From positions 1 to 64,000 of the forward strand of contig NZ_JAAMFJ010000007.1 in NCBI RefSeq assembly GCF_018437235.1: a stretch of DNA of 64,000 nt. The letters are read 5' to 3'. The notes below the pieces were generated by a model. That model had not been told where the DNA came from. It made no database searches and was given only the letters and a program-made list of their open reading frames with translations. Shown here piece by piece: positions 7,996-45,543 of this stretch; the stretch's first letter is position 1; each line of letters begins with the position of its first letter. This DNA comes from Fructobacillus papyrifericola (lineage in GTDB: Bacteria; Bacillota; Bacilli; Lactobacillales; Lactobacillaceae). The position numbers and the translations under genes are program-made.

Positions 7996-8030
7996 AAAAA
8001 GTCCCGCTACGAAAGTAGCGGGACTTTTTT
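7996..8030. terminator. bidirectional terminator clpC / EIIC-like gene
   Basis: Perfect stem AGTCCCGCTAC/GTAGCGGGACT with GAAA loop, A run on one side and T run on the other; it serves the two convergent genes. Confidence 0.9.
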
Positions 8031-8036
8031 TACTCT

Positions 8037-9155
8037 TTACATCATATCTAAGTGAAGATCGTTTTCCTTGGTTAAGCCAGCCTTCTTCAATAAGAAGTAG
8101 TAGGCAAATCCGGCAGCTGCTGGCAACAAAGCGCCGAAGACCATGACCAGTACCAAAGCATGCACGTTAGTACCCAGCAAGGCCAGGGGTGCGATTAGCG
8201 AGGTGAGACCCAAGCCGGCGATGGTGAAAGGCACCTTCAAATCAAAGACTCCAACGGCCAACATAGCGGACACACCGGCAATAACCGCAGGACCGAAGAA
8301 GAGCAAAGGGCTCTTTAACAAGTTAGCAAACTGGATTTTCGGTGTCACGATGGTTTGGGCAACGTTGGCACCGACGTTGTTTTGACGAAAGCCCATTACG
8401 GTATACATGACAAAGCCGGCGGTTGTACCAACCAATGCGGCCCCACTGGAAAGGGGGTCAAGCATGACGGCGATGGCAAGGGCGGCAGACGAAGCCGGTG
8501 TCATCAAGAAGAGGAACCAGAAAAAGGAGACGACAAAGGCGCCTAAGAAGGGACTCACGGCCATTGTCTTGGCAAGGTTTTCAGAAACCCAGTTCAAAAA
8601 CGGTGTCGTGTAGGTTGCGGCCACTAAGCCGGTAACGGTACCTGTTAAGGCTGCAGAAAAGGGAACGAGTAGCATGTCCAAGGCCGTTTTGCCGGTTAGG
8701 TAATTACCGACTAAGACCGCGACAACGGCGGCAAAGACGGCAGAAACCGGTTGGCCCGAGGTCATGACCAAAGAGCCGACGGGCTGTGTTGCGGCCCAAT
8801 TGGTCGCTGTGTGCGTGTTTGCAATCGCTGTGCTAGCAAAGTAGACGGCGTTTGAACCAACTGTTGCGGCAATTAAGGCAGCCCCGGTTGTTAAAACGGT
8901 GGCATCAAGGGCCATGGCGACACCGACACCGAGTGCGGGGGCCAACATCTTTTGCCCCATGGCACCGGCCTGGACTAATGCGGGAAGGTGCAGGATGTTG
9001 CCCAGTGAACTAAGCAGTAAGCCCATTCCTAAAACAGATAGGATGGCGTAAGTGATTCCCTGTGAAACAGCGTAAAAGGCTGATTGTTTCTTTTTGTTTG
9101 GTGTAGCCATTTCCTGTGGGCGAACATCCGCCGCTTGTAAAGTTGTTGCATCCAT
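8037..9155 (-). CDS. PTS_EIIC_2-like membrane transporter under leader-peptide attenuation
   Basis: A 372-residue integral membrane protein with about ten hydrophobic segments, resembling the EIIC-like family usually annotated as PTS sugar transporter subunit IIC (PTS_EIIC_2). Features include a Gly/Ala-rich core and the stretch LFLMTPASSAALAIAVMLDPLSS cut by polar turns. No EIIA or EIIB domain or gene is adjacent, so sugar phosphotransfer is doubtful. The start MDATTLQ is chosen because TTGGAGGAAG lies just upstream; longer frames run into the attenuator. Its mRNA begins 230 nt upstream with an Ile-rich leader peptide and a terminator, which suggests a role linked to branched-chain amino acids rather than sugars (inference). 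Confidence 0.75.
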   Translation of the reverse strand: MDATTLQAADVRPQEMATPNKKKQSAFYAVSQGITYAILSVLGMGLLLSSLGNILHLPALVQAGAMGQKMLAPALGVGVAMALDATVLTTGAALIAATVGSNAVYFASTAIANTHTATNWAATQPVGSLVMTSGQPVSAVFAAVVAVLVGNYLTGKTALDMLLVPFSAALTGTVTGLVAATYTTPFLNWVSENLAKTMAVSPFLGAFVVSFFWFLFLMTPASSAALAIAVMLDPLSSGAALVGTTAGFVMYTVMGFRQNNVGANVAQTIVTPKIQFANLLKSPLLFFGPAVIAGVSAMLAVGVFDLKVPFTIAGLGLTSLIAPLALLGTNVHALVLVMVFGALLPAAAGFAYYFLLKKAGLTKENDLHLDMM

Positions 9156-9184
9156 CGATACTTCCTCCAAATTTCTTCTCCAAC

Positions 9185-9209
9185 AAAAAAGACGCCAGAA
9201 ACTGGCGCC
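9185..9209 (-). terminator. attenuator terminator of the EIIC-like gene
   Basis: On the minus strand GGCGCCAG (9209-9202), loop TTT, CTGGCGTC (9198-9191), then six T (9190-9185). It lies 30 nt before the gene start, inside the leader transcript. Its 5' arm can also pair with the upstream segment around 9245-9250. Confidence 0.8.
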
Positions 9210-9293
9210 TTCCCATAGCATTGGATAGAAAGTAGAGGATTGGCCGCCAGCCCAAGTCAATGTGCTGGCAGCTAAAAAGGTGACCAGCAGTTA

Positions 9294-9362
9294 TCAAATA
9301 ATGATAATGCTAATCACGATTGCGTTATTCAATTGAGTTGATTGCTGATTTGTTGTCATCAT
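9294..9362 (-). CDS. leader peptide, 22 aa, Ile-rich
   Basis: An open frame starting with ATG ATG and ending in TGA, preceded by GAGGAG (9373-9368) at 5 nt. The peptide is MMTTNQQSTQLN followed by NAIVISIIII. The last eight codons are ATC GTG ATT AGC ATT ATC ATT ATT: six Ile, one Val, one Ser. This run of control codons just ahead of alternative RNA hairpins and a terminator is the classical arrangement of ribosome-mediated attenuation. It is too short for ordinary gene callers. Translation is strongly implied by the SD; regulation is inferred. Confidence 0.75.
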   Translation of the reverse strand: MMTTNQQSTQLNNAIVISIIII

Positions 9363-9387
9363 CTTTTCTCCTCGATTGGTTGTATTC

Positions 9388-9416
9388 ACTATACTAAGAT
9401 TAAAAATAAATGTCAA
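9388..9416 (-). promoter_or_regulatory. promoter of the leader peptide / EIIC-like gene
   Basis: On the minus strand, perfect TTGACA (9416-9411) and TATAGT (9393-9388) with a 17-bp spacer. The transcript starts about 20 nt before the leader peptide ATG. Confidence 0.85.
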
Positions 9417-37921: not shown

Positions 37922-37932
37922 GTAAGTCGGTA

Positions 37933-38005
37933 TTGTTTACCTCACGATAAGCCCCGGAAACTTATTGTAACCGTCTGAGAAGGAACGCTCAGACATTGTA
38001 AACAA
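37933..38005 (+). promoter_or_regulatory. L13 leader RNA
   Basis: Three-way junction: closing helix TTGTTTAC (37933-37940)/GTAAACAA (37998-38005), hairpin CGATAAG/CTTATTG (37945-37951, 37961-37967) and hairpin GTCTGAG/CTCAGAC (37973-37979, 37988-37994). Its place directly before rplM and its form match the L13 leader family of Firmicutes, which is thought to mediate autoregulation by L13. Confidence 0.75.
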
Positions 38006-38024
38006 CTAATTAAAGGAGCGCGCC

Positions 38025-44310: not shown

Positions 44311-45543
44311 ATGAATCAATCAGATGAATTGTTGAATCAAGTTCAAAATGAGATGAAATGTGTCGTTTCATATCAAAGCGGATTGTTGGCGCTTAAAGAC
44401 ATGAAGGCGCAACTAAATAGTTCAGAAGAATATGCTAGACAAATTGGTTCAAAGCAGCATAAGCTGGCCAAAAAGTTAGCAAATGTAACAGGAAAACTTG
44501 AGAATAAAGATCAGTTTAAAAGTAATTTGTTGGCGGAAAATAGTCATGCTGGAATTGATCAGTACAGGCCGAAAATAAAAAAGGATAATGCTTCAATTCC
44601 AGTTCAAGTGTTCATTTTAGACTTTTTAATTTTGATGATTTCGGTTTTGTTGTCATTTGTTTTTGGTTCATTCAAAGCAACAGCAATGCAATTAGTAACT
44701 GGTGATTCTTCACAGACTCTTTTGAACGCGGCTTCCATTGCACCATTTGTGGCGATTTTCTTTATAATTTTTAGGCATAAATATCCAAAGGAAGTACACC
44801 GCAACAACATGTTTTTGAATCGTAAGTTATTGGTTCGACTGTTCTGTGTGCTTCAAATAATTGCTGGATTCATTATTCCAACTGTAATGATTCGAAACTT
44901 TGGGAATGTTCAACCTGCGATTGCAATTTTATTTCCAATTTTATTAATTGCCAGTTTCATTATCACTGTTCCAATTTTTGGTAAAATTGCAAAAAAATAT
45001 AATAGTCGTTTTGTACAGGAACAAAACAAACATGATGCAGTTGTCTTCAATAAAGGCCTTAAAAAACTGGAAGAAGAACAAAGTGAACTGCAAAGTGAAA
45101 ATAATTGGTTGTTGTCTGTTGTTAATGACGTGGATAATAGTATTGCCCAAATGAAGAATGTTCAATTACCTGCTGCCGAAAAGGAAGTTCAACGATTGCA
45201 TGATGCGCTTCCAGGAAAAATTAAAGTTCCCGACAGGTATTTATACGATGTCTTGTATTATCAGTATTTAGTTGAAATTGTTAAAAGTGATCAAGCTAAA
45301 GAAATTGGTGAAGCACATCGCATAGCGACTGATCGTTGGACTGAGCAGGTACATCACAATGAAAACCATAAGGATGCAGAAACAATTAAGGATCTTGTAA
45401 GTAAACAAATGGATAAACAAGACGTTGCATTAGAAGGAATTATGAAGGAATTTTGGCAATTAAACACAAGTGTTCAAAGTGGATTTAGCGACGCTAGTGA
45501 TCGTATGAGGGATGTTGAAGATGCCATCAATGGACGCGATTAA
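44311..45543 (+). CDS. membrane protein with coiled-coil ends, unknown
   Basis: 410 residues, family not recognised. An N-terminal helical part (~1-90) is followed by four hydrophobic segments (~98-120, ~132-152, ~170-190, ~198-222). A long Glu/Gln/Lys-rich coiled-coil region comes next (~225-300), then a cytoplasmic-looking C-terminus rich in charged residues. GAGGAG precedes the ATG. The gene is distinctly more AT-rich than the ribosomal and groESL genes, which suggests acquisition. It is flanked by its own promoter and terminator. Confidence 0.6.
   Translation: MNQSDELLNQVQNEMKCVVSYQSGLLALKDMKAQLNSSEEYARQIGSKQHKLAKKLANVTGKLENKDQFKSNLLAENSHAGIDQYRPKIKKDNASIPVQVFILDFLILMISVLLSFVFGSFKATAMQLVTGDSSQTLLNAASIAPFVAIFFIIFRHKYPKEVHRNNMFLNRKLLVRLFCVLQIIAGFIIPTVMIRNFGNVQPAIAILFPILLIASFIITVPIFGKIAKKYNSRFVQEQNKHDAVVFNKGLKKLEEEQSELQSENNWLLSVVNDVDNSIAQMKNVQLPAAEKEVQRLHDALPGKIKVPDRYLYDVLYYQYLVEIVKSDQAKEIGEAHRIATDRWTEQVHHNENHKDAETIKDLVSKQMDKQDVALEGIMKEFWQLNTSVQSGFSDASDRMRDVEDAINGRD

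Follow-up and report, generated by a model that had tools for sequence, protein, structure and literature searches.

A leader-peptide attenuator with a branched-chain amino acid codon run precedes the gene for an EIIC-fold transporter in Fructobacillus papyrifericola and its relatives

In the stretch of Fructobacillus papyrifericola DNA analysed here, 64,000 nucleotides long and hereafter called the window, the gene for a PF13303 transporter is preceded by a ribosome-mediated attenuator, and this leader is more than a chance arrangement because it is conserved in relatives. The explanation that best accounts for the data, to which a probability of about 0.7 is assigned, is that the attenuator switches on a transporter of branched-chain amino acids (BCAA), mainly Ile and Val, when charged tRNA-Ile or tRNA-Val is short. 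The mechanism is of an already known kind, ribosome-mediated attenuation, and the apparently new features are the target family, a regulon made up only of carriers, a first pairing segment placed past the stop codon, and control codons that are split between paralogues or merged in one leader.

Leader and transporter gene in the window

The promoter, the Shine-Dalgarno sequence, the leader reading frame, pairing segments A to E and the transporter start were all located on the minus strand at the positions proposed in the sequence-only reading. That reading had called the promoter perfect; it is strong, but falls one position short of the consensus. The parts are as follows.

9388 to 9416, minus strand: promoter, with -35 TTGACA at 9416-9411, a 17-nt spacer and -10 TATAGT at 9393-9388 (11/12 consensus positions)
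9368 to 9373, minus strand: Shine-Dalgarno sequence GAGGAG of the leader peptide, by sequence reading
9294 to 9362, minus strand: leader peptide reading frame MMTTNQQSTQLNNAIVISIIII, 22 codons, ATG at 9362, stop TGA at 9296-9294
9284 to 9289, minus strand: segment A, directly after the leader stop, with partner B or alternatively D (A:B covariation in the g16 alignment)
9263 to 9272, minus strand: segment B, with partner A or C (duplex energies, g16 alignment)
9243 to 9254, minus strand: segment C, with partner B or D (C:D columns almost invariant in g16)
9202 to 9209, minus strand: segment D, the 5' arm of the terminator (duplex energy, g16 alignment)
9185 to 9198, minus strand: segment E, then the six U that complete the intrinsic terminator (duplex energy)
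8037 to 9155, minus strand: PF13303 (PTS_EIIC_2) transporter gene, 372 aa, EIIC fold, ATG at 9155, stop codon at 8039-8037
7996 to 8029, minus strand: terminator 3' of the transporter gene, between it and a convergent clpC-like reading frame

The control codons of the leader read Ile-Val-Ile-Ser-Ile-Ile-Ile-Ile, and its TGA stop is followed by an in-frame TAA. The proposal of five alternately pairing segments held, in that all four pairings were computed as stable duplexes, with energies of -11.3 (A:B), -19.5 (B:C), -14.9 (C:D) and -14.1 (D:E) kcal/mol. D:E was missing from the list returned by a terminator scan of the locus, presumably because its stem can extend into the U tract, and neither a T-box (RF00230) nor any other Rfam element reached gathering score there. 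Upstream, the neighbour of the transporter gene encodes a prepilin-peptidase N-terminal domain (A24_N_bact), and the convergent downstream reading frame is one which we take to be clpC. Among 397 short ATG reading frames (15-32 codons) in the window, three carried at least eight Ile, Val or Leu residues among their last 13 (the other two at 44746 and 57909), and of these three only the leader had a Shine-Dalgarno match of 6/6. The small reading frame with a terminal Leu run at 44675-44746 (minus strand) lies antisense within a 410-aa reading frame and is most likely a chance occurrence. Elsewhere in the window, a ribosomal protein L13 leader (RF00555, 56.6 bits) lies at 37929-38008 (plus strand).

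Under the favoured reading, a ribosome would be translating the 22-codon peptide as RNA polymerase copies the leader. When Ile or Val is short, the ribosome would stall within the Ile/Val run, upstream of A, so that A could pair with B (or directly with D) and C with D; D:E would then not form and the transporter would be made. When both are plentiful, a ribosome at the stop codon would cover A, B:C and D:E would form, and transcription would end at about 9185. The product would be an EIIC-fold carrier working without the phosphotransferase system (PTS), most likely a BCAA importer. Its genome also contains a paralogue with a Leu-sensing leader, and BrnQ genes whose leaders, of similar kind, sense Ile and Val. 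This account is built on the leaders, their conservation and covariation, the company of BrnQ leaders and the absence of enzyme I from the genomes searched, from which we infer ribosome stalling, the direction of the switch, the substrate and the direction of transport.

Conservation of the leader

Homologues of the transporter were sought in 397 genomes of the family (E <= 1e-40, with at most five candidates scored per genome), and at least 160 of these genomes held one. The window's clade was defined as the best 48 of the matches listed (E up to 7.8e-108) together with locus L126 of genome G175; of these 49 loci, 48 were examined, the exception being that of G098 (score equal to that of G063), and the duplicate copies L033-L035 were not counted. 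A leader peptide ending in a run of Ile/Val or Ile/Leu/Val was present at 44/48 same-clade loci, spanning eight genera, and was followed by chained hairpins and then a terminator. At one other locus (L053) the leader region is cut off by the contig end, and in genus g11 three loci of the clade (L059, L062, L068) showed no leader reading frame. The endings include IVISIIII, IIVAIIIIT, IIVISPIVIII, LITINVVIII, AIIIRTVIIIN, IIVVNIIVIII, LLLGLILDLIIIN and SIILISIVLLITQ, as well as SIILISLVLLIRQ at L126, the 48th locus examined, which does not enter the folding, footprint and Leu-codon counts below. All 74 leaders of the structural set, from which loci without a leader reading frame were left out, carry an Ile/Val, Leu or mixed run.

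No such leader was found in 19 upstream regions of distant homologues, nor in three of four others (L011, L012, L015), and the interrupted gene at L125 (G330) belongs to a leaderless group and not to the Leu type described below. Homologues without a leader peptide or terminator had been named in the sequence-only reading as an observation that would count against it; this check found a leader retained at 44/48 same-clade loci and missing from most of the more distant homologues inspected. The proposal of amino-acid attenuation is supported.

Several features were observed upstream of or beside homologues outside the window's clade. At L019 (G016), a 40-codon reading frame with a Shine-Dalgarno sequence starts with the BCAA run MLVIIIIGLLLDLVLIITT and is possibly a separate BCAA leader. 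Leaderless homologues at L011, L076-L079, L081 and L088 share, by eye, TTCTCAT-like words between the -10 element and the Shine-Dalgarno sequence, perhaps a regulator-binding site. An Rfam Ref68 (Lacto-3) sRNA (L012, 1279-1406, plus strand, 81.6 bits) adjoins another homologue, and upstream of the L015 homologue (G053, of another family, with CodY present) the sequence AATATTTAGAAAAATT resembles by eye a CodY box, judged against what we take to be its consensus.

BrnQ genes, T-boxes and regulatory company

BrnQ is a known family of BCAA importers, according to the available part of PMC6123439. Of the three BrnQ (PF05525) genes in the window's genome, two have leaders designed like that of the transporter: these tandem genes follow MTNSFQNNQAIIISIIIP and MNKNLTLNLAVVVSVVIR, Ile- and Val-sensing by their codons, and no leader was found for the third. 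The window's transporter is thus not the sole candidate BCAA carrier in this genome. A TPP riboswitch lies near the tandem pair (L129, 4853-4950, minus strand). Among 24 further chosen BrnQ genes, 16 have such leaders, four have a T-box as judged by consensus words, and four have neither; the leader-bearing genes come from genera g1, g6, g7, g16, g19, g46 and g56, with the weakest run, ASVLVIVPTLR, in g56.

A T-box instead stands ahead of the transporter homologue at the three g22 loci examined (L075, L080, L083), the first two being among the 19 upstream regions above and three further g22 genomes lying outside this count. The matches at L075 (58.9 bits) and L080 (73.6 bits) are both below the Rfam gathering score of 93, and the T-box at L083, absent from the Rfam matches at gathering score, is recognised by consensus and specifier only. 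Read by eye, the specifier is the same at each of these loci, CUC (Leu) and then A. A second, divergent T-box in g22 has an AUC (Ile) specifier by eye and precedes a 2-oxo-alkenoate hydratase-like gene that lies head to head with the T-box transporter gene; the protein at L075 matches TIGR02312 at 87 bits, below cut-off, and has no Pfam match. The divergent regions are the following.

L075, 4670 to 4921 and 5004 to 5804, plus strand: g22 divergent T-box region
L080, 2236 to 2477 and 2535 to 3410, plus strand: g22 divergent T-box region
L083, near 5006, plus strand: g22 divergent T-box region

CodY was not found in any of the 49 family genomes searched, and control of the locus by CodY was therefore rejected. 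IlvC was not found in 13/13 genomes of Fructobacillus, nor in 43 of the 53 genomes searched overall.

Paralogues and codon content

A second, paralogous group of the transporter was present in 24 of 28 chosen genomes and had a Leu-run leader in all 24, with endings such as LLLSLLWTS, LLLNLLLI, LLLSLLGNS and similar. Across the same 28 genomes, the window's orthologue was not found in five of Fructobacillus (G001, G002, G005, G006, G012) and two of g56 (G073, G105). Next to the Leu-leader gene, these seven genomes carry a tandem copy that is 62-66% identical to the paralogue-group query and has an Ile leader (such as QVIIIVSLLNN or AVIISSPS), so that each again holds one Ile and one Leu leader. 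In the tree, the tandem Ile-leader copies form a single branch (support 98/87) and, together with the Leu-leader genes, a clade (100/100) separate from that of the window (100/100). The Leu group itself has support of 74/98, and the Ile-leader copies fall either within or beside the Leu-leader genes. Two separate carrier clades thus have members with Ile leaders. Three genomes (G003, G009, G010) have the Leu type only, and in G010 two short fragments (G010:C9:5695-5958), 58-59% identical to the window's protein, are probably what is left of an orthologue that was lost.

The number of Leu codons in window's-clade leaders varied with the number of paralogues. In 27 two-paralogue genomes there were 0-2 among the last 13 codons, as against 2-6 in 15 of 16 single-paralogue genomes, the exception being G379 with none (Mann-Whitney p = 2e-7, with related genomes counted as independent). 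By genus, the five with two paralogues throughout have at most one Leu codon, g43 and g46, with one paralogue, have two to three, and g18 is mixed. The separation of Ile- and Leu-sensing paralogues, together with the merging of Leu codons into single-paralogue leaders, suggests that the substrate classes follow single amino acids.

The proposed link of the transporter to branched-chain amino acids is supported. An unlikely variant, albeit one that deserves some weight, keeps the same attenuator, on during BCAA shortage, and has the carrier import compounds that yield BCAA, such as oligopeptides or 2-oxo and hydroxy acids. It would be in line with the BrnQ genes of the same genome and with a fold known from sugar EIIC carriers and not from a known amino acid carrier. 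It accords poorly with the Ile- and Leu-sensing paralogues and the mixed Leu codons where one paralogue was found, and with the 7 of 24 tested Ile-leader genomes in which neither BrnQ nor IlvC was found (G027, G096, G190, G230, G290, G379, G412; among BCAA carriers, this search covered BrnQ).

RNA structure and direction of the switch

An alignment of 18 leaders of genus g16 was compared with the two alternative structures, which had been drawn up from the same 18 sequences. A:B with C:D was paired in 95.6% of cells and showed 11 double-change cells, where shuffles gave 3.3; for B:C with D:E the values were 97.1% and 30, where shuffles gave 8.5. When partners were slid by 1-3 columns as a control, 21-54% were paired. 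Four pairs of A:B with C:D show double changes, a number reached by 23 of 500 shuffles, and B:C with D:E shows 18 further pair types against 19.0 in shuffles, that is, no excess. The C:D columns are nearly invariant, so this helix is supported by conservation and not by covariation. As judged from the alignment, both predicted structures covary, with the exception of the C:D part.

The direction of the switch was addressed by folding transcripts that ended before E, either with A free or with the first 13 nt from the stop masked. With A free, D was more tied up by upstream RNA (difference above 0.1) in 54 of 72 leaders, the reverse (below -0.1) held in six and 12 lay between; shuffled controls averaged near 0, and in only 16 of the 72 was the difference matched by at most 5 of 100 shuffles. 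The window's own leader scored -0.02 in this set, where its terminator was misparsed automatically; with the correct arms, D was tied up at 0.86 with A free and 0.19 with A masked, as calculated without shuffled controls. In its minimum-energy fold, D pairs directly with A and encloses B:C. Two g6 leaders of the transporter set, L008 and L054, showed little C:D pairing by eye and no folding gain. Among BrnQ leaders, 10/17 exceeded 0.1 and 2/17 fell below -0.1. Full-length equilibrium folds favour D:E whether A is free or masked, and the switch must therefore be kinetic, decided during transcription.

A ribosome covers about 12 nt past its A-site codon. With this footprint, a stall at the first control codon leaves segment A free, with at most two bases touched, in 91/91 leaders, and by class 84-100% of control codons do so. 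Once the ribosome has reached the stop codon, half or more of the computed A is covered in 65/91 leaders, a figure depressed by cases in which the B:C hairpin had been taken for A. Geometry and folding thus favour a gene that is on when the ribosome is stalled and off when it stands at the stop codon. This is what would be expected of an importer produced when amino acids are scarce, and it argues against an exporter.

Two readings of the leader offered from the sequence alone did not withstand this geometry. Stalling at the Ile codons had been thought to mask A and cause termination, which would suit an exporter expressed at abundant Ile. The stated pairings of A to E are possible, and a ribosome halted on the final Ile codon would cover part of A, yet with A free as counted above and the same leader design ahead of BrnQ importers, such an exporter is quite improbable; overflow export is also unlikely because Fructobacillus lacks IlvC in all 13 genomes. 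An importer switched on by a stalled ribosome that covers B is an unnecessary assumption and also misfits, because in the window B begins 22 nt beyond the last base of the stop codon. Very little likelihood attaches to a leader that senses translation speed in general, or an antibiotic, and not amino acids; leader peptides of that type exist, ermC being an example in the available part of PMC2965389, but codon identity here (Ile, Val, Leu or mixtures) tracks gene and paralogue.

The transporter protein and its PTS label

The protein matches PF13303 (PTS_EIIC_2) at 212 bits, with no EIIA or EIIB domain detected by Pfam, and no NCBIfam family was found for it or for four relatives. No sequence relatives of known structure were found, and a plasmid search gave a single weak match, to a gene with a PTS-subunit annotation on a Nicoliella plasmid. 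An AlphaFold2 model built with 58 homologues (pLDDT 88.9, pTM 0.83) had three Foldseek matches at E <= 0.001, all of them PTS EIIC entries at 14-15% identity: 9a6a_B, an integrative model of GLPD-PTTBC (TM 0.47), 9a3b, a model of E. coli PtsG (0.56), and 8qsr, a cryo-EM structure of the E. coli glucose IICB (0.53), with TM taken by query length. Both sequence family and fold therefore place the protein among the EIIC proteins.

EIIC proteins have a conserved catalytic Glu or His. In the 58 homologues no Glu column reached 60% and the best His column reached 78%; invariant polar residues include D160, N259, K273, Q275 and N278. Enzyme I (PF05524) was not found in 6/6 Fructobacillus genomes or in G234, the window's genome being 93% complete; it was found in 8 of the 15 genomes searched and in 7/14 controls, and HPr was present in 15/15.

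The earlier doubt about the PTS-sugar label is supported, and a PTS sugar permease was rejected on the ground that enzyme I was not found in the six Fructobacillus genomes tested. A true PTS permease whose expression is tied to amino acid supply by chance would agree with the Pfam match, the fold and the presence of HPr, but is hardly credible given that no enzyme I was found in the six Fructobacillus genomes tested, that Pfam detects no EIIA or EIIB domain in the protein and that no Glu column reaches 60% in the 58 homologues. The model and alignment suggest that the protein may be an EIIC-type carrier without phosphorylation chemistry, and its regulation indicates that import of BCAA is its most likely function, as regards both substrate and direction of transport.

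Relation to known systems

Enteric bacteria control BCAA genes by ribosome-mediated attenuators, and their his attenuator is a chain of alternately pairing segments, A-F, whose register is likewise set by the position of the ribosome and which ends in a terminator. The window's chain resembles it minus the first segment and differs in having a transporter gene as its target and in that its first segment lies beyond the stop, where a terminating and not a stalled ribosome would mask it.

Within the same genomes, the BrnQ leaders have the design found in the window, namely a short reading frame with a BCAA run, A at the stop, a hairpin chain and a terminator, although BrnQ and PF13303 are unrelated transporter families. 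T-boxes, found on the g22 homologues and, by consensus, on 4/24 BrnQ genes, also bring about amino-acid-specific antitermination, but sense tRNA without a leader peptide, and none was found at the window locus.

In Bacillota, the S. aureus ilv-leu operon is described in the available part of PMC5794164 as having a BCAA-codon leader-peptide attenuator that terminates transcription when the amino acid is plentiful, and that of PMC6123439 names further attenuators of this type from Listeria, L. lactis and Streptococcus. As far as these portions describe it, the ilv-leu type shares with the window the BCAA-codon leader peptide and the terminator, but has biosynthetic targets and, in S. aureus, additional control by CodY, whereas the targets here are carriers in genomes where CodY and, for Fructobacillus, IlvC were not found. 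His leader-peptide attenuators predicted from sequence in Bacillota (PMC9413887, PMC2965389, available parts) are also ribosome-mediated but, in those accounts, carry His codons and control his or hisS-type genes, unlike the window's leader. No report of leader-peptide control of PF13303 or BrnQ in these bacteria was recognised in a literature search that left subscription papers largely outside its reach.

Implications

With somewhat better than even confidence, the broader pattern may be that a family with the EIIC fold left the sugar PTS and became carriers of BCAA, that in lactic acid bacteria without CodY these carriers form an attenuator regulon with BrnQ, and that leader codons were divided into Ile/Val and Leu sets, or combined, in step with the gain and loss of paralogues, so that the leader would read out the substrate of its carrier. 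A transporter family that bears a PTS sugar label thereby gains a function that can be tested, and bacteria without IlvC a probable route of BCAA uptake. The leaders also supply a case, spread across the family, of ribosome-mediated attenuation among Bacillota, in which the coupling of transcription and translation is debated. Leader codons may further serve as a means of predicting the substrates of unassigned carriers, for which the close paralogues with Ile or Leu leaders would act as natural replicates.
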